Source: Ostreibacterium oceani | GTDB lineage: Bacteria > Pseudomonadota > Gammaproteobacteria > Cardiobacteriales > Ostreibacteriaceae | Length of the DNA stretch: 64,000 bases | Reading direction: 5' to 3' | Assembly: GCF_009362845.1 (NCBI RefSeq) | Contig: NZ_WHNW01000005.1 | Coordinates: 1 to 64,000 of the forward strand | Shown here: one piece after another, positions 1,330 to 64,000 of the stretch | Layout: the number at the start of each line of letters is the position of its first letter | How positions within the stretch are numbered: the first letter of the stretch is position 1 | Notes under the pieces: generated by a model | The model's input: the letters and a program-made list of their open reading frames with translations, nothing else | Database searches by the model: none | What the model was told of the DNA's origin: nothing | Translations under genes and position numbers: made by a program

Positions 1330-2613
1330 ATGCAAATCCCTCAGTTAATTGCGATTCTCTTGGTTGCCACAGCGTTACTCTCGGTGATTAACGAAAAATT
1401 CATCAAAATGCCGCTTAGTATTGGCGTGATGGTTATCACAATGGTGGCCTCTCTGCTTATTTTGTTGGCAGGTTATTGGGACTGGTTTCATGCCGATCAT
1501 TTTGTCCATCAACTCGTTAAGCGGATTGATTTTTCCGAGACACTGATGCATGGCATGCTAAGTAGTATGCTCTTTGCGGGTGCATTACACACGAATTTGA
1601 CCAAATTATGGCAGCAAAAATGGGCGATATTTTTCTTGGCAATTTTTGGTACCTTTATCTCAACGGCATTAGTTGGTTATGGTATTTATTATCTATTTAA
1701 TGGGCTGGGGCTAGTCGAGTTACCGCTACTTTATTGCTTGTTATTTGGTGCGTTGATTTCTCCAACTGATCCGATTGCGGTGCTCGCGATTATGCGTCGT
1801 GTCGGCGCGCCAGCTGATTTAGAGATATTGATTTCGGGTGAATCATTGTTTAATGATGGGGTTGGTGTTGTGCTGTTTGCCGTTATTGGTGCCATGATTT
1901 TAGGTGAGTCACAAACCCCAGTGATAACAGGTGCCGTTTTATTTGCAGAAGAAATGGTCGGTGGTATTTTATTCGGCTTGCTGTTGGGGTGGGTAGGTAA
2001 TTGGCTGCTAGAACAAGTGTATGATTACCACATGGATGCGTTGATAACGCTTGCTGTATCATTTGGTGGTTACCAGATGGCATTGGTGCTTGGCGTGTCG
2101 GGGTTGATTGCCGTGGTTGTGGCTGGGTTGATGGCAGGGCAATACATGCGTAAATATTATCCAGCGGATGAGTTGGGGCGAACGCCATTGGATATTTTTT
2201 GGAAGATTATCGATGAACTGCTCAATGCTATTTTATTCGTGTTAATTGGTTTAGAGCTGATGTCGTTTGCGACGATTTCTGTGCCGGTATTGGCGATGAG
2301 TGTCGTTATTTTGGTGGTATTAGTCGCGCGCTGGGTAAGTGTTTTGATTCCGATTGGCTTCTTAAAGCTATGTCGGCACCCATTTCCAAGGCATGTCATG
2401 GGGTTTATGACCTGGGGTGGCTTAAGGGGTGGTTTACCCATCGCGTTGGTGCTGTCACTGCCACAAAGCGAAGCGCGTGAAACCATGATTTTGCTAACGT
2501 ACGCGGTAGTCGCATTTTCAATTATAATTCAGGGGCTTTCAATTAGCCCACTGATGCGTTTTTGGATGAGAAATGAGAAGCTACCAGCTATATCGCCGTC
2601 AACGCGAGACTAG
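1330..2613 (+). CDS. Sodium:proton antiporter, CPA1 family
   Basis: Inner-membrane monovalent cation/proton antiporter that exchanges cytoplasmic Na+ (or K+) for protons, for pH and sodium homeostasis. From the ATG at 1330 the protein is 427 residues and strongly hydrophobic, with about 12 membrane segments. Visible family motifs are SPTDPIAVLAI (about 145-155), GESLFNDGVGVVLF (about 168-181, with the conserved ND pair) and MTWGGLRGGLPIALVLSLP near 375. The frame stays open upstream to a TTG at 1237, but that region lies on a terminator hairpin. Family members normally start near MQIPQLIAILL, so 1330 with GGTGA upstream is preferred. It is monocistronic. Ion preference cannot be told from sequence. 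Confidence 0.85.
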   Translation: MQIPQLIAILLVATALLSVINEKFIKMPLSIGVMVITMVASLLILLAGYWDWFHADHFVHQLVKRIDFSETLMHGMLSSMLFAGALHTNLTKLWQQKWAIFFLAIFGTFISTALVGYGIYYLFNGLGLVELPLLYCLLFGALISPTDPIAVLAIMRRVGAPADLEILISGESLFNDGVGVVLFAVIGAMILGESQTPVITGAVLFAEEMVGGILFGLLLGWVGNWLLEQVYDYHMDALITLAVSFGGYQMALVLGVSGLIAVVVAGLMAGQYMRKYYPADELGRTPLDIFWKIIDELLNAILFVLIGLELMSFATISVPVLAMSVVILVVLVARWVSVLIPIGFLKLCRHPFPRHVMGFMTWGGLRGGLPIALVLSLPQSEARETMILLTYAVVAFSIIIQGLSISPLMRFWMRNEKLPAISPSTRD

Positions 2614-2860
2614 TCAGCGCCTCTAGCGTGTCCAAAATCCCTACAGCGCCTAGAATACCTATCCTCCTCCTCGTTATTGCTTATCAGTGTTAATCAGTGG
2701 AAGACGTTTGTCAGTAACATTGGCGCTGGCTAGGATTGGCTAGGTCTGGCGTTATTGGTGAAAAGTCCAAAAAAATGAAGCCGAATCTGGGGCGAATCTG
2801 GGGCGAAGGTGCTTATTTGTTTCTGATTTTTAAATTGGCTGCTTGATGGATGGTTTTAGA
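2614..2860. other. Intergenic stretch with small tandem duplications
   Basis: No gene is visible. It holds two short tandem duplications: a 10-bp unit TGGCTAGG.. at 2727-2746 and a perfect 11-bp unit CGAATCTGGGG at 2782-2803. No T-tailed hairpin for the antiporter gene is evident. Confidence 0.6.
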
Positions 2861-2889
2861 TTGACAAGGTTATCCGTGCGTTTTATGAT
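2861..2889 (+). promoter_or_regulatory. Strong sigma-70 promoter for the beta-propeller gene
   Basis: TTGACA at 2861-2866 and TATGAT at 2884-2889 are separated by exactly 17 bases. The -35 is a perfect consensus and the -10 has one mismatch. An AAGGAG ribosome site follows at 2908-2913 before the ATG at 2924. Confidence 0.75.
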
Positions 2890-2923
2890 GACTGTGAATT
2901 AATTAACAAGGAGTAAGCAAACC

Positions 2924-5113
2924 ATGTATCGTTCTGACTGTCAAAATCAGCATATTATGCATCAATTTGCAGGGGTGTTTTCAAGCCGCGCTAAGCCGTT
3001 GGTAAAAACCATCTGCTTGTTATCCGGGCTATCTTGTGCGTTGGTGGGTTATGCACAAGAAGTCACGCGAGTCAGTGTCAATAGCGCAGGCGAAGAAGCA
3101 AACCGGGGGGGTTTTTACTCTAGGCCTACGATTTCAGCCGATGGTCGCTACGTGGCGTTTGAATCAGAGGCAGATAATCTGGTGGCGGGTGATACGTATG
3201 GCATATGGGATGTATTTGTGCACGACCGTGAGACGGGCGAGACCACCCGTGTCAGTGTGAGTAGCGCAGGCGAGCAGGCGAACGACGAGTCTGAATCGCC
3301 TGCGATTTCAGCCGATGGTCGCTATGTGGCGTTTGAATCAGAGGCAAATAATCTGGTGGCGGGTGATACGAATGGTGCCAGCGATATTTTTGTGCACGAC
3401 CGTGAGACGGGCGAGACAACCCGTGTGAGTGTGAATAGCGAAGGCGCTGAGGCGAGCAGCTCTTCTGGTTTGCCAGCGATTTCAGCCGATGGTCGGTACG
3501 TGGCGTTTGACTCAAGGGCAGATAACTTGGTGGCGGGTGATACGAATGATGCAAGGGATGTGTTTGTGCGCGACCGTGAGACGGGCGAGACCACCCGTGT
3601 CAGTGTCAGTAGCGCAGGTGCGCAGGCGAACAGCGTGTCTGATTCGCCAGCGATTTCAGCCGATGGTCGGTACGTGACATTTGCATCGTATGCAGATAAC
3701 CTGGTGGCGGGTGATACGAATAACGACTGGGATGTATTTGTTCACGACCGCGAGACAGGCGAGACAACCCGTGTCAGTGTCAATAGCGCAGGCGTGCAGG
3801 CGAACAACGACTATTCTTCGTACCCTACGATTTCAGCCGATGGTCGTTACGTGGCGTTTTCATCGGATGCAGACAACCTGGTGGCGGGTGATACGAATAA
3901 CGACTATGATATTTTTGTTCACGACCGCGAGACAGGAGAAATCAAACGAATTCCAATTTCCATAGCTCCATATGATTCTGTATCGTTATCATTATCTGCC
4001 GATGGGCGATATATTGCTTACTCATCTGAAATTGAGTGCCTTTTTTCGCCATGCCCTGATGTTGGTTATGGGGTTTATATTTATGACCAAAAGACGGAGC
4101 AAACCGAAGTCATTGTTAATTTAGTCGAAGATAATAATATTTATTTTATAGGTAGTGGATTCCCTAGTTTATCAGCCGATGGTCAAACGGTGGCATTTGG
4201 TTCGAGTAATACTAACTTGGTGCCTAATGACACCAATCAAGCGTTCGATATTTTTGTGGCAGAGTTAGGCGAGACCATACCCAACATCAGCGGTACGTGG
4301 TATGACCGCAACCAGAGTGGTTTAGGGTTTAACATGATTCAAACAGCGAACGACCAGTTGGTGGCGTATTTTTATGGCTATGAAAATGCTGATGGCAACA
4401 CTAACGGCAACACTACTGGCGATGCGCTGTGGTTATTGACGGACGCTTTGGCCGTATCGCAAATTGAACAGGGCAAAACCTACACCCTGCCTGTCTATAC
4501 GGGTTTTGCGGGCAATGGCGGTCGCTTTGATAGCGCCCCGACTACGGACAGAAGCGGCTTGACCGAATGGGGCAACGTCGAGCTTACCTTTACTGGCTGC
4601 GGTACCGCGACGGCAACCTTGATTGGTGATAATGGTACCAAGTCATTTGATATGATTAAGCTAGCCAATGTCAAAGGCGCTGAATGCGGTGATGCAGTTA
4701 CTAATAATCCGTTTTTCAATATCAGCGGCACGTGGTACGACACGACTGAAAACGGTCTTGGGTTTAATGTCATTAATACAACGAACAATCAGTTGCTGGC
4801 GTATTTTTATGGCTATAAAAGTGGTGCAAATGGTGATACGCATTGGTTGTTATCAGACGCCTTGCCAGTTGATACAGTAGTGCCTGGTCAGACTTATACG
4901 ATACCCGTTTATACGGGCTATGCAGGTAACGGCGGTACATTTACAAACGCACCGACAGATGGCAATAGTGGTATTCGAGATTGGGGTACACTGCAAATCA
5001 GGTTTGATAACTGCAATAGCGGTAGTGCGACCCTGTCAGGCGAAGATGGAACCAAGTCATTTAACCTAGTGAAATTAGCTAACCTGAAAGGCGCAGCTTG
5101 TAGTAGTAATTGA
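2924..5113 (+). CDS. Secreted beta-propeller (PD40/TolB-like) protein with two C-terminal surface modules
   Basis: 729 residues. An N-terminal signal region (hydrophobic about 29-45, ending YAQE) predicts export. Residues about 46-445 hold seven repeats of about 58 residues. Each has a core like SADGRYVAFES..NLVAGDTN and DIFVHDRETGET, typical of PD40/WD40-like blades, so seven copies fit one seven-bladed propeller. Blades 1-5 are nearly identical and blades 6-7 are diverged. Two copies of a further module follow (about 447-590 and 600-727). Each begins NISGTWYD..GLGFN and contains AYFYGY, a WLL motif, a paired-Cys-like late segment and KSF(D/N)(M/L)(I/V)KLAN. The same module, diverged, ends the nucleotidase at 6850. 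Role unknown. Binding or adhesion at the surface is an inference. It starts at ATG with a strong AAGGAG site and a consensus promoter. Confidence 0.8.
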   Translation: MYRSDCQNQHIMHQFAGVFSSRAKPLVKTICLLSGLSCALVGYAQEVTRVSVNSAGEEANRGGFYSRPTISADGRYVAFESEADNLVAGDTYGIWDVFVHDRETGETTRVSVSSAGEQANDESESPAISADGRYVAFESEANNLVAGDTNGASDIFVHDRETGETTRVSVNSEGAEASSSSGLPAISADGRYVAFDSRADNLVAGDTNDARDVFVRDRETGETTRVSVSSAGAQANSVSDSPAISADGRYVTFASYADNLVAGDTNNDWDVFVHDRETGETTRVSVNSAGVQANNDYSSYPTISADGRYVAFSSDADNLVAGDTNNDYDIFVHDRETGEIKRIPISIAPYDSVSLSLSADGRYIAYSSEIECLFSPCPDVGYGVYIYDQKTEQTEVIVNLVEDNNIYFIGSGFPSLSADGQTVAFGSSNTNLVPNDTNQAFDIFVAELGETIPNISGTWYDRNQSGLGFNMIQTANDQLVAYFYGYENADGNTNGNTTGDALWLLTDALAVSQIEQGKTYTLPVYTGFAGNGGRFDSAPTTDRSGLTEWGNVELTFTGCGTATATLIGDNGTKSFDMIKLANVKGAECGDAVTNNPFFNISGTWYDTTENGLGFNVINTTNNQLLAYFYGYKSGANGDTHWLLSDALPVDTVVPGQTYTIPVYTGYAGNGGTFTNAPTDGNSGIRDWGTLQIRFDNCNSGSATLSGEDGTKSFNLVKLANLKGAACSSN
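3066..3940 (+). repeat. Five direct repeats of about 174 bp encoding propeller blades
   Basis: Within the propeller gene the segment from GTCAGTGTCAATAGCGCAGG to GACCGCGAGACAGG recurs five times at a period of about 174 bp (58 codons), with long identical stretches at the DNA level. Such similarity points to recent duplication or gene conversion among blades, so copy number could vary between strains. Short-read assemblies may collapse it. Confidence 0.8.
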
Positions 5114-52066: not shown

Positions 52067-52966
52067 ATGATGGCGTATTCGATCGTGGGTTCTCAATGTT
52101 TTGCGAGTCTGCTCAATATCGCATTGAGCCGCCATCAGCGCGAGTGCTGTGTAAAATCGAGTGACGGCAATTCCCGCGACGGTAATCCCTGCGACGACAA
52201 TCCCCGCGATGGCAACCCTAGCCATCGCAATGGCAACCCTAGCCATCGCAATGGCAATCCTAGCCATCGCAATGGCGCTATAGATTTGTCACCGCTAGAA
52301 TCCTTGTCAATTACGTTGGCGATTGATGAGCTACCTGCATCAATTGCGGTACGGTTTGTCAATGGTCGGGCAACCGCGATGTTAACAGATACGGCCACAG
52401 CAACAGATATGACAACAGATACGAGAACCAGCGCTGAGGCAACAGATGTGGCGTTTTCAGGCAGTTTGTCAGCGATGGTTGCGTTACTGACGGGCGAGGT
52501 TGGTTTGGCTGATTCTGAGGTTTATATTACGGGGAAAATTGGCAGCGCCCAGCGTTTTCAAGCGGTTTTTTCGGCGTTAGCGGTTGATTGGCGTGATTTT
52601 TTTACACGCCGTTTGCCTGAGACGATTTCAACGTTAGTTCCAGGCCTTATCCCTGATTTGATACCTGAGGCTATGCGTGATTCAATGCGAGATTCAATGC
52701 GTGATTCAATACGCGGCGAAGGTGCTAAAACCCACAAAGCTGCATTACAAAAAAGTCTGCATGCGTTTACCAGTGGCGCTCAGCTAGTCGATGCAGGCGC
52801 GACACAGTTAACACAATCTTTGCATGAATACGTAACCCAAGACAAAGCATGGGTGGTGCCCCGCGCGGAATTTCAAGCACTCAGCGGGTTAGTCGATACG
52901 CTGGACAGTCGATTAACCCAGCTGTTAAAGCAAATCGAATTAAATCAAACCAAGTCAGGAGAATAA
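52067..52966 (+). CDS. ubiJ: Ubiquinone biosynthesis accessory factor UbiJ with expanded repeat insertion
   Basis: 299 residues, about 100 longer than usual UbiJ (near 200). UbiJ (SCP2 domain) binds quinone intermediates in the Ubi complex with UbiK. The N-terminal core (FASLLNIALSRHQRE) and middle segment LSITLAIDELPASIAVRFVNG are family-like. The C-terminus is helical (LTQSLHEYVTQDKAW near 245-260). Three features are odd: an insert from 15- and 21-bp tandem repeats (52163-52273) encoding DGNPR- and GNPSHRN-type units, a 12-bp repeat giving MRDS three times (52673-52711), and a Thr/Ala-rich stretch. It lies between ubiE and ubiB, which fixes the identity. Confidence 0.82.
   Translation: MMAYSIVGSQCFASLLNIALSRHQRECCVKSSDGNSRDGNPCDDNPRDGNPSHRNGNPSHRNGNPSHRNGAIDLSPLESLSITLAIDELPASIAVRFVNGRATAMLTDTATATDMTTDTRTSAEATDVAFSGSLSAMVALLTGEVGLADSEVYITGKIGSAQRFQAVFSALAVDWRDFFTRRLPETISTLVPGLIPDLIPEAMRDSMRDSMRDSIRGEGAKTHKAALQKSLHAFTSGAQLVDAGATQLTQSLHEYVTQDKAWVVPRAEFQALSGLVDTLDSRLTQLLKQIELNQTKSGE
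52163..52273 (+). repeat. In-frame tandem repeats inside ubiJ (3 x 15 bp then 3 x 21 bp)
   Basis: Three 15-bp units starting GACGGCAATTCCCGC (52163-52207) are followed by GAT and three 21-bp units GGCAAYCCTAGCCATCGCAAT (52211-52273), with at most one difference among the latter. They encode DGNSR, DGNPC, DDNPR and three GNPSHRN units. Near-perfect identity suggests a recent origin. Confidence 0.9.
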
Positions 52967-54607: not shown

Positions 54608-54934
54608 GTGTTGAGCGATAGGGCGCAGATTCAAAATCGAAGCAAGTCGTTTAAAGCCAACGCTGTACAGCTTGCGCTGTTACACAACCTATTGGCAATC
54701 GATGCAGACACAGCAAAGCAGCGCGTCTTATTTATTGGCGATTCGCATAATGACGCGGTTATGTTTAATTATTTTGATTTATCGGTGGGTGTGGCGAATG
54801 TGATGGATTGTATCGAGACCCTGGCGCACCGACCTAAATACATCACGCAACAAACCGAAAGACAGGGTTTTGTTGAACTGGCTGAGTGGTTATTGGATAA
54901 TCAATCAGATGAAGAAAAACATCATTTAATTTAA
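54608..54934 (+). pseudogene. HAD phosphatase remnant, N-terminus missing
   Basis: 108 codons from a TTG. RVLFIGDSHNDAVMFNYF and LSVGVANV look like the C-terminal motif IV region of HAD phosphatases (GDxxND motif), followed by HRPKYITQQTERQGFVELAEWLL, typical of the C-terminus of Cof-type HAD enzymes. The Asp nucleophile part is absent and upstream DNA is ubiB, so it is a truncated remnant. Expression, if any, would give an inactive fragment. Confidence 0.75.
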
Positions 54935-55915: not shown

Positions 55916-57143
55916 ATGACAACCACCCGCTCTATGGATATGGCTGCTTCGTTTATCGAGTTTTTCGGGTGATTATTTATATCAAATGGCGATTATTTGG
56001 ATGGCGTGGACATTATCGGATTCAGTATGGTTTACGGGGAGCGTCGCGGCGGCGTATCGCCTGCCATTTTGGTGTTTTGGGTTGTTTGCTGGCATAGTCG
56101 CGGATCGGTTCAATCGCCAATCGATTGTGATTCGCGCCAATACGATGCGTTGGTTGTTGTCGCTGTGTATTTTATCCTCTATGCGAGCGATTTGATGACG
56201 CCGTTGCTGCTGTTAGGGTTGGTGTTTTTTATTTCGGTGGCGTGGTCGTTTGAAAATCCCGCGTTTTCCGCGCTCATTCCGCAACTGACCGACGCCTCAT
56301 CCATTGGCACAATCAATCATCTGATCGACAACACGAAGCGCATTGCAGGTGTCGTGATGCCGTTGCTGTCCATCTGGCTGGCATCGCATAGCGACACAGG
56401 CGATTATTTTTTGATTATTGCCGCGTGCTATTTGCTGGCAACCGTTTGTGCGTCACGGTTTACGCCCATCATCCCATTTCAGCCGAACACGGCTAGCGTA
56501 TCACTGCTTTCGCGGTTTAAAACCATGTTTCGCCTGTTTTTACATTATCCGCTGATTATGATCGCCGTGTTTTGCTTTGCGTTTTAATTTAGCGTACGGC
56601 GCGGGCGTGGTGTTAGTGCCGATTATCATTGATCAACACTACCATTTGGGGTTGGATGGTTTTAGCCTGTTTATGGCAGCCCAAGGTTGCGGCGCATTAG
56701 TCGCTAATCTATTACTCCGCAGGGCGATGCTACCCAGCCAGACGCAACTCAGTCCAACGAAATTCAGTCGAGCGCATCAACAGGTTTACCATGCACCTTT
56801 TTATGGGTTTATCATCGTCGCAATCGGCTTAATCGCCGTTGCACTTTGGCACAGCCTGCCAATGCTGATTGTGTTTGGTTTTGTGGGTGGCTGCGGATTG
56901 CCACTGATGGATATTTACATGCCCAGCTTGATTCATAGCGTCGGCAACGCGCAACATCACGGCAGATTGTTTGCCATTTGGCGGTTTTTTGCGGATTTTG
57001 GCATGGTGATGGGATTTGCGCTCAGCGGACTGCTCACATCCTTTGCCACAGCACCGACTGCTTTAACACTGATTGCCGTGCTGACGATCCCAGCCTCGCT
57101 TTACGGATTGTATCGATTTAACCGCAGCCATAAACATATGTAA
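55916..57143 (+). pseudogene. MFS transporter, frameshifted
   Basis: An MFS efflux-type protein can be read only by changing frame several times. ATG at 55916 gives MTTTRS, then another frame gives WIWLLRLSSFSGDYLYQMA (about 55935-55990) up to a stop in MRWLLSLCILSSMRAI. A second frame starts at about 56170 (YASDLMTPLLLLGLVF) and runs to AVFCFAF, stop near 56585. A third shift at about 56575 leads to FNLAYGAGVVLVPIII and continues to 57143. Together they give about 400 residues with 12 membrane segments, the normal MFS layout. At least three frameshifts make it a pseudogene unless the sequence is wrong. Substrate unknown. Confidence 0.8.
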
Positions 57144-61561: not shown

Positions 61562-61993
61562 ATGCACAACACAGTACCCTTTCGGTGCGATTGCCCCATT
61601 ACCTCGGCACTAGATATTATCGGTGATCGCTGGATGTTGATTATTGTTAAACAAATGCTGGTCGAGGGAAAACAAACCTTTAAAGAATTTACACAAAGCG
61701 ATGAAGCCATCGCCACCAATATTTTATCGACCAAATTAAAATGCCTTGAAGCGCTCGAAGTCATCACCAAAACACAAATGCCGGGCAATAAAAAAACCAA
61801 TATCTATCGCTTAACCGAAAAAGGACTCGCACTAGCCCCCCTCATCATCGAACTCGCCATCTGGAGCGACGCGTATGTCCGCCCCATGCACGCCGACATG
61901 CAAAAACCCAAAGAACTCACCCTAATACATCAAGACAAAGCCGGCTTTATTGACGCCTTAGTGCAGCGCTATAAAGCACAGTCGCCATTATAG
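61562..61993 (+). CDS. HxlR-family winged-helix transcriptional regulator
   Basis: 143 residues. MHNTVPFRCDCPITSALDIIG carries a Cys pair (Cys9, Cys11), then GDRWMLIIVKQMLVEGKQTF (about 23-42) is the winged-helix HxlR domain. FKEFTQSDEAIATNILSTKLK and NIYRLTEKGLALAPLIIEL follow. Many HxlR regulators sense electrophiles or oxidants through an N-terminal Cys and control an adjacent oxidoreductase. Its neighbour is a divergent SDR plus a dead quinone reductase (mdaB), which fits. The ATG at 61562 has a weak upstream site. Confidence 0.93.
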   Translation: MHNTVPFRCDCPITSALDIIGDRWMLIIVKQMLVEGKQTFKEFTQSDEAIATNILSTKLKCLEALEVITKTQMPGNKKTNIYRLTEKGLALAPLIIELAIWSDAYVRPMHADMQKPKELTLIHQDKAGFIDALVQRYKAQSPL

Positions 61994-62319
61994 GCGCAAA
62001 GAGCGAATTGATATAAAAGGCAACAAAGCGACAAATCAATACGCATATATCACGATAAAAAGTGGCTTTTCCATTAAAACGAACAACAAAAAATCTAATA
62101 ATAAGTTGATTTGCATCAAGGTTTAAGGTTATAGTTCATGATTAATAAACTGCTGTTGAATATGAAATCAGGACATACCATGTTATTGTTATTTATCCGA
62201 CAGCTCACGAGAAAATGATTGATAATGCAGATTATTTTAATATTTAATTGCCTGTCTTCTATAAAGGGATATAAGGCAAAGTGTTCGTTATCCTACTGTT
62301 AGGCTACAAGGAATAAATA
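61994..62319. other. AT-rich intergenic region before the OLD gene
   Basis: No gene seen in 326 bases, and no tandem repeat or terminator hairpin stands out. It is AT-rich and may hold promoter DNA for the OLD gene. Its composition differs from the core genes, which is consistent with an acquired region. Confidence 0.5.
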
Positions 62320-64000
62320 GTGAAAATTGAAAGTATATGGGTCAAAAACTGGCGTTCATTAAAAGAACAAAAGCTAGAAGCACAAGATCTGATGGTTATC
62401 ATTGGCCAGAATAACCACGGGAAATCGAACCTTTTGTCTTCTGTCTTGTTCTTCTTTGGTGAGATAAAGCAACAAGATCTGGATTTTCATCATGGTTCTT
62501 CAGAACTATTTGTGGAAATTGAGTTTGGTGATCTTGATGAATCAGACAAAACTACTTTCAAGAAGTATTTAACCTCTGAAGAAAAAATAGTTGTAAGAAA
62601 AACTGCCTTTCTAGGCGGTAGTTTTGAATACCGAGGGTACATAGAAAACCCATCGGATGCCTGGCTTCAAGAAGCAAATGCTTCTGCTTATACTAAAAGA
62701 GAGCTTGCTTCCAGTCTTCCATTCCATCCTTATATCCCCGATTCTGGTCGAATTACCAAACAAAACATCATTGATGCCCAAAACGAATATATCCAAAATA
62801 ACAGGGAAGCTATTCAATTCGCTTTTGAGCTTGAGACGACAAACTTTCTTGGTTTGCAAAGTGTCGCAAAGGGAATATTTGGTGAGGTTTACTTTATACC
62901 AGCTGTAAAAGAAGCCTCGGATGATTTTTCTTCTAAAGATTCTAGTGTTTTCGGAAAAATGTATGCTGATGTTGTAGCTTTAATGTCTGAGCACAATAAC
63001 GACTGGAAGGAAACAAAGGAAAAACTCGGGAAACTATTTTCCACCCTGAATAAAAAAGATCATGAAGGCAATGACAATAATGATAGACCTCAGCAATTAA
63101 CTGACTTTGAGAAAGAGTTAACAGATGAACTTGTTGCATGGGGTGCCAAAGTAGATATTGAAGTAAGCGCCCCTGATATTGAAAATGTATTTAAAGCAAA
63201 TACGCAGGTTTGGATTGATGACGGTGTTAGAACTGATATAAAAAGAAAAGGGCACGGTTTACAGCGTGCTCTGACAGTTGCGCTAATACAAGTTGTTGCT
63301 AAGAAGGCTCTTGCTGAGGCAAAGTCAGCGGAAGAGCGAGGAAATAGAAAATCATCAAATTCTAGATACTTCATATTCGAAGAGCCTGAACTTTATTTGC
63401 ATCCTCAAGCACAAAGGTCGTTATTCGACTCATTCGTGGCTTTGTCTGAGTCAGGGAGTCAAGTTATTCTATGTACTCACTCAAGCGGTTTAATTGATGT
63501 TGAGCGTTATAAGTCTATTTACATAGCAACAAAGGATGATGAGTTAAACGGAACTAAGGTTAAACAATGCACCGAAGACTTATTTGAAGGTGATTCGAAG
63601 AAAGATTTTAATCTTTCCTACTGGATCAATCCTGATCGTGGGGAATTGTTTTTTGCAAGTAAAGTTGTTTTGCTAGAGGGCGCTACAGAAAAAACTGTAT
63701 TTCCTCTGTTGGCGAAAAAGCTCGGTGTTTTCAGGTACGAATATACGTTAATTGATTGTGGCTCAAAATACAATATCCCTCTTTACGTTAAGCTGATGAA
63801 TAAATTTTCTATCCCATATGTGGCTGTTTATGACCGAGATCATCAAGCTCACAAAGGGGACGATGCAATTGCGTCAGCAGATCGAATAACACAAAAAATT
63901 GTTGATGAGATTGATAACCACATAGGTTCTTCAGTGGTCTTAGAAAACGATATAGAGGAAGAGCTAGGCTTACCAAATGGGGGCAGTAGCAAACCTTATA
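62320..64000 (+). CDS. OLD-family ATPase/TOPRIM nuclease (3' end outside window)
   Basis: Open from a GTG at 62320 (AAGGA seven bases ahead) to the window end, about 560 codons without a stop. Walker A IIGQNNHGKSNLL (about 28-40), ABC-type signature KGHGLQRAL near 310-318, Walker B EEPELYLHPQAQR (about 352-364), H-loop CTHSSGL near 385 and a TOPRIM domain starting with VVLLEGATEKTVFPLL (about 449-464) and the Asp pair in VYDRDHQ near 502. This is the ATPase plus TOPRIM nuclease of the OLD family, known from P2 Old and from defence systems such as Gabija (GajA with a UvrD-like GajB). Whether a partner gene exists lies beyond the window. Confidence 0.93.
   Translation, partial: MKIESIWVKNWRSLKEQKLEAQDLMVIIGQNNHGKSNLLSSVLFFFGEIKQQDLDFHHGSSELFVEIEFGDLDESDKTTFKKYLTSEEKIVVRKTAFLGGSFEYRGYIENPSDAWLQEANASAYTKRELASSLPFHPYIPDSGRITKQNIIDAQNEYIQNNREAIQFAFELETTNFLGLQSVAKGIFGEVYFIPAVKEASDDFSSKDSSVFGKMYADVVALMSEHNNDWKETKEKLGKLFSTLNKKDHEGNDNNDRPQQLTDFEKELTDELVAWGAKVDIEVSAPDIENVFKANTQVWIDDGVRTDIKRKGHGLQRALTVALIQVVAKKALAEAKSAEERGNRKSSNSRYFIFEEPELYLHPQAQRSLFDSFVALSESGSQVILCTHSSGLIDVERYKSIYIATKDDELNGTKVKQCTEDLFEGDSKKDFNLSYWINPDRGELFFASKVVLLEGATEKTVFPLLAKKLGVFRYEYTLIDCGSKYNIPLYVKLMNKFSIPYVAVYDRDHQAHKGDDAIASADRITQKIVDEIDNHIGSSVVLENDIEEELGLPNGGSSKPY

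Follow-up and report, generated by a model that had tools for sequence, protein, structure and literature searches.

A class 1-type OLD nuclease gene as cargo of a single-gene integron cassette, a candidate stand-alone phage defence

Introduction

Class 1 OLD proteins act without partners: according to work cited in PMC13261556 and PMC12904381, the Old protein of phage P2 answers inhibition of RecBCD and cleaves tRNA, and the OLD protein of V. cholerae is a phage defence that nicks DNA. Other solitary OLD proteins are reported to have Toprim-independent or non-defence roles, among them YbjD (PMC13261556) and Cran1 (PMC12796447). Solitary class 1 OLD genes as a group are rare and poorly understood (PMC13261556). 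The T. scotoductus protein, whose residues have been mapped (PMC7049728), served as our reference.

Integrons are established as stores of phage-defence cassettes (PMC12409362, PMC12444791), and PMC12409362 describes such cassettes from the chromosomal integrons that marine bacteria carry. Each half of the present case is thus known, the class 1 OLD proteins on one hand and phage-defence cassettes in integrons on the other; for their combination we found no open report. Our search covered the open literature on OLD and integrons, the founding integron-defence papers being outside its scope, and returned no OLD cassette. Here we describe a locus where the two meet. We consider it likely that a complete class 1-type OLD gene is carried as a single-gene integron cassette and that its product acts alone against phages, the defence part being what we infer from comparison with known systems.

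Results

The DNA analysed here, which we call the window, comprises positions 1-64000 of a contig of 111,007 bases (G000:C5) in a 2.18-Mb draft genome. At its right edge, a gene opens with a GTG at 62320 on the forward strand, closely preceded by AAGGA, which resembles a ribosome-binding site. The reading frame runs past the window edge (62320..64000 within it) and is complete and intact on the contig, where it stops at 64089 and encodes 589 amino acids. A preliminary description of the locus had recognized an OLD-family nuclease with intact ATPase and TOPRIM motifs, and Pfam, PADLOC, PDB matches and residues invariant in 26 homologues all bear this out. The Pfam domains AAA_15 (5.9e-39) and OLD-like_TOPRIM (9.8e-16) both exceed the cut-off, and among all PADLOC defence models "Old" comes top at 244 bits, with AriA at 142 and GajA at 134. 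The best PDB sequence match is T. scotoductus OLD (6p74).

Invariant ATPase residues across the 26 homologues comprise a Walker A motif GQNNxGKSN with K35, a Walker B motif FIFEEPE with E354 and E355, H361, and H387 within THSS; the H-loop His is present. In the TOPRIM domain, E453, D505, D507, D544, E546 and K558 are likewise invariant. The metal-A residues E453, D505 and D507 align with E377, D431 and D433 of the T. scotoductus protein, and E457, D544 and E546 align with its D381, S478 and E480 (the metal-B set), position 457 being either E or D across homologues. R487 of T. scotoductus OLD aligns with N553, and the invariant K558 lies five residues further on. In the PDB-match alignments, 136 residues follow the first catalytic Glu, compared to ~151 in T. 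scotoductus OLD and ~199 in GajA, and the C-terminal helical domain of class 2 is absent. A structure model built from the 26 homologues (mean pLDDT 82.6) retrieved 6p74 first in a fold search of the PDB (E 6.7e-23), followed by GajA and Eco8 OLD, with global TM-scores of only ~0.5, which probably reflect a different orientation of the domains. By its sequence, the gene at 62320 encodes a complete class 1-type OLD protein, with a predicted ABC-type ATPase joined to a TOPRIM nuclease.

Comparison at the DNA level delimits a unit around this gene. Blastn of the OLD region matched Paraferrimonas haliotis at 95%, an uncultured Marinomonas at 90% and Shewanella waksmanii at 94%, the last over the 3' part only, at a contig end. 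Nucleotide identity around the reading frame spans only ~-22 to ~+66 in the Marinomonas (L024) and Gilvimarinus (L025) copies, with nothing outside; it starts at -14 in Paraferrimonas (L028), and Shewanella (L048) has the same right end as L024 and L025. With the Paraferrimonas, Marinomonas and Shewanella copies, identity ends at most a few bases from the core sites. On the left, it begins with L024 and L025 at a GTTAGGC core (62298..62304, forward strand), cut as G|TTAGGC to start the cassette at 62299, and with L028, whose own left junction is not a clean core site, it begins eight bases inside. The same GTTAGGC is, in L024, the 3' core of a complete attC. The right end reads GCCTAAC...GCGTTATGC; this part and the GTTAGGC of the left edge are the R'' and R' core sites of integron cassettes. 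The whole unit, G|TTAGGC...G|TTATGC on the forward strand, measures 1,851 bp, from 62299 to contig position 64149 (62299..64000 in the window), and has the same boundaries in five genera, within different and unrelated flanks (L002, L024, L025, L027, L028, L048). On this sequence evidence the OLD gene is the cargo of a single-gene integron cassette, for which IntI excision and integration are predicted, a nature that the preliminary description had not foreseen.

The attC of the cassette occupies 72 bp at contig 64084-64155. Its layout, with R''/R' pairing, a stem TTGCT(G)CACT(C)GG and two extrahelical bases, is that of an attC. The folding energy of this site alone is unremarkable (z -1.0), and the case for it therefore rests on covariation, position and homology. 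We aligned 14 sites from OLD cassettes and their neighbours, in which standard pairs fill 83% of cells, compared to 64% in shuffles and 31-39% in slid controls. Cells changed on both sides number 50, whereas shuffling yields 19.3 and sliding 4-16. A covariance model made from these 14 sites scores the window attC at 84 bits and recovers four attCs absent from model building (12252 and 14391 in L025, 6726 in L028 and 5506 in L029). As a positive control, a class 1 integron from Salmonella was scanned, and the model recovers its attCs of estX and aadA2. To this estX attC, that of the window is closely similar, with 93.8% identity over 65 bp.

An attC follows OLD at the same place in Marinomonas, Gilvimarinus, Marinospirillum (L027), Paraferrimonas and Shewanella. 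The Gilvimarinus cassette sits within an array of six attCs, and four attCs precede OLD in a Desulfobacteraceae MAG (L029). Divergent intI genes lie upstream of OLD in L024, L027, L028 and L029; we observed that all four are truncated or split. Matches to intI above the curated cut-off occur at other places in the genomes of Gilvimarinus and Shewanella, as well as in two genomes of Ignavibacteriota whose OLDs are more distant. The near-identical copies indicate that the OLD cassette has passed between unrelated marine bacteria. In the tree, the window OLD groups with the Marinomonas and Paraferrimonas copies (support 100/100), and this trio nests in a ten-member clade (100/99) in which Thermodesulfobacteriota and Chlorobiota are also represented. 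Cassette labels on the tree require two to four changes, such that one gain with losses and several gains are both possible.

In the host's own class the gene has little company. At 1e-60 none of the 368 other genomes of the class has an OLD match, and a comparison with 56 genomes from the order or class gave weak OLD-like hits only, the best of them covering part of the protein at 32% identity. By these searches the window OLD is rare and sporadic and is not a housekeeping gene, which disposes of the concern that a housekeeping-like OLD might be present in all relatives. No plasmid-borne copies were found above 60% protein identity. We also considered a phage origin and rejected it, as a search of IMG/VR gave no relative and phage matches were remote only. 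Among phages, we noted that Vibrio phage vB_Vipa71 (MT193890, H41), of 10.3 kb, has a remote OLD-like endonuclease gene (1395-3161) that is large for the size of the phage.

The region to the right of 64000, it had been suggested, might hold the rest of a defence system. It holds instead the end of OLD, the attC, a kinase-like cassette and ordinary chromosomal genes. Downstream of OLD are a 164-aa AAA_33 P-loop protein, a PRK09272-type membrane protein and a SpoIIAA-like protein, followed by aceF, aceE, tRNA-Ser and an mraZ-mraW-ftsL-ftsI-murE cluster, the housekeeping names being read from translations. Extension of the sequence to the right in search of a UvrD-like helicase, a reverse transcriptase or another partner yielded none: over the 17 kb right of the gene, neither Pfam nor PADLOC detects a helicase, a reverse transcriptase or AriB. 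No GajB helicase was found downstream and no retron ncRNA beside OLD, the sole Rfam match right of the gene being one tRNA. For all that the protein belongs to the OLD family, there is next to no probability that it has Gabija, retron or PARIS-type partners there, an idea that the contig sequence to the right refutes. Nor is there a shared neighbour gene among the proteobacterial OLD cassette copies, or one common to the window copy and any of the 27 relatives fetched. The cassette nature of OLD explains why no partner stands to its right. Membership in Gabija or among the retron OLDs (class 3) was rejected, with no GajB helicase and no adjacent reverse transcriptase or ncRNA.

The same flanks bear on the size of the acquired DNA. 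The OLD cassette has 38.8% GC and the next cassette 40.7%, compared to 46% on either side. The AT-rich composition noted earlier is therefore real, but the accessory zone shrinks to an insert of ~3 kb, because the flanking genes, SDR/HxlR on the left and aceF/aceE on the right, are ordinary chromosomal ones. Further to the left, we noted a probable pseudogene of an MFS-type transporter (55986-57143), whose reading frame is split into overlapping segments that lie in different frames. Between ubiE and ubiB, where ubiJ would stand, is a protein with in-frame GNPSHRN-type short tandem repeats (52067-52966), and after ubiB a 108-aa piece (54608-54934) resembles the C-terminal part of a HAD phosphatase and is perhaps a gene remnant.

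The second cassette carries the AAA_33 gene (contig 64176-64670, 164 aa, same strand as OLD) and ends in a truncated attC, of which only the 5' half is present (contig ~64666-64710). The gene starts 26 bp into this cassette and 86 bp after the OLD stop. This spacing and the shared strand would suit a two-gene defence system of OLD and the kinase-like protein. However, an attC lies between the two genes, AAA_33 neighbours OLD in none of the 27 relatives, and its own relatives occur elsewhere without OLD, some with attCs of their own. One of them (L057), 76% identical, has attCs on both sides, which argues that AAA_33 is a cassette gene too. A joint system is very unlikely, and AAA_33 was rejected as a partner of OLD, since it belongs to a separate cassette and each gene occurs independently elsewhere.

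In the present host, the draft genome (36 contigs, 100% complete by estimate) has no integron integrase, with XerC/D-like matches far below the cut-off only, and no complete integron of intI with attI. It has no complete attC other than that of the OLD cassette, and one truncated one. CALINs have at least two attCs without intI; here there is one complete attC and one truncated attC. With no integrase and no other complete attC, the pair of cassettes looks stranded. Its left junction does not resemble an attC; an eroded attI or a non-classical insertion at an attG site (Loot 2024, cited in PMC12901181) could account for it. A search of the left flank against plasmids for an attI or a mobile-integron promoter region gave no match. 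The 3' end of the HxlR gene (61920..61979, forward strand) is repeated at contig 64843-64900, beyond both cassettes, with 92% identity over 60 bp. This bracketing repeat, also seen as a 47-nt repeat at 96%, may be a scar, left either by an HxlR paralogue since lost or by the insertion itself.

A promoter scan upstream of OLD did no better than chance, so the gene may be silent in this host. One could therefore picture both cassettes as dead relics, stranded, unexpressed and drifting here, whatever the protein does elsewhere. The missing integrase, the single complete attC beside a truncated one and the lack of a promoter signal above chance fit this picture, but the reading frame is intact, every conserved residue is present and the sequence is ~95% identical to other intact copies. 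Intactness, kept residues and identity instead suggest recent arrival or continued selection, and we hold the relic to be rather unlikely.

Discussion

Our preferred reading is that of a class 1-type OLD which travels as a one-gene cassette and defends by itself. IntI-type recombination would have brought the cassette in, at an attI since lost or at a non-classical attG site, and any present expression would depend on a nearby host promoter. The ATPase may sense a phage-caused state, such as RecBCD inhibition in the case of P2 Old. The TOPRIM domain would then cut nucleic acid, either tRNA, as reported for P2 Old, or DNA by nicking, as reported for V. cholerae OLD, and the outcome would be blocked phage growth or abortive infection.

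An anti-phage function is what we infer for the window OLD by analogy, and the gene stands as the defence candidate it was first taken for, a plausible one in acquired AT-rich DNA. Neighbours of individual non-cassette relatives back this role indirectly: L033 adjoins an operon for type I R-M, L043 a DNA methylase and L044 a pAgo-like gene, L032 has a SIR2 gene nearby, and in two Pasteurellaceae (L035, L036) OLD lies within type I-C cas genes. The cassette could also be real and its role another, with OLD serving as a DNA-repair or cell-cycle factor or as selfish, addictive cargo that stabilizes the array. There are precedents, as the archaeal OLD Cran1 is reported to have a cell-cycle function and apparently no antiviral one (PMC12796447), and a YbjD knockout is without a phage phenotype (PMC13261556). 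Against such roles speak the sporadic distribution and transfer between phyla, the repeated adjacency of relatives to R-M or CRISPR genes, and the anti-phage activity of the closest characterized class 1 proteins, P2 Old and V. cholerae OLD. We judge a non-defence role unlikely.

Some relatives have neighbourhoods of further interest. In the Pasteurellaceae Aggregatibacter and Glaesserella (L035 1331-4945, L036 7339-11235), the type I-C cas operon has OLD inside it, flanked by cas4 and cas1, and the Glaesserella copy has an early frame break. At seven Bacteroidota loci (L039, L041, L042, L044, L045, L046, L049), a KTSC-domain protein of ~70 aa (PF13619) is encoded directly upstream of OLD. The domain is named after the C-terminus of lysyl-tRNA synthetase. 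From the end of the KTSC gene to the start of OLD there are 0-230 bp, and in two of the seven loci another small gene intervenes; a two-gene KTSC-OLD unit in Bacteroidota is possible. Three of these Bacteroidota (L039, L042, L044) also have in common a 343-aa gene that starts 0-10 bp after the OLD stop, one copy of which has a weak PDDEXK match below the cut-off.

It is tempting to speculate that this branch of class 1 OLDs spread chiefly by integrons. A partner-free, single-gene defence would stay within the size limit of cassettes. Bounded by its attC, it could have moved as a unit between Gammaproteobacteria and Thermodesulfobacteriota, and it might settle in integron-free genomes by attG-type insertion. 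We put this forward tentatively, at somewhat less than an even chance. With the OLD cassette, there is a concrete means by which solitary class 1 OLD genes spread, and the candidate defence genes carried by integrons now include a large ATP-dependent nuclease. The cassette can also be put to the test, since close copies exist in cultured Paraferrimonas, Gilvimarinus, Marinospirillum and Shewanella.

Among known systems, the window OLD shares with the class 1 proteins (T. scotoductus 6p74, phage P2 Old, V. cholerae OLD and E. coli YbjD) the N-terminal ABC-type ATPase, the C-terminal TOPRIM domain with metal-A and metal-B acidic residues, the lack of a helicase or reverse transcriptase partner and the lack of a long C-terminal helical region. 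Unlike them, it rides an integron cassette with an attC, and it aligns with P2 Old over half its length at only ~30% identity. Gabija (GajA), retron Eco8 OLD and PARIS AriA have the same ATPase-TOPRIM or ATPase core, but each of these systems works with a partner gene, and none lies beside the window OLD. With the estX cassette of class 1 integrons, only the attC is held in common, and the gene differs. Phage-defence cassettes of integrons (Darracq 2025, Kieffer 2025, Getz 2025; as described in PMC12409362) resemble the present one in carrying single-gene, defence-type cargo between att sites. The OLD cassette differs from these in its large product for a cassette (589 aa), in a host without an integron and in a function that is predicted.
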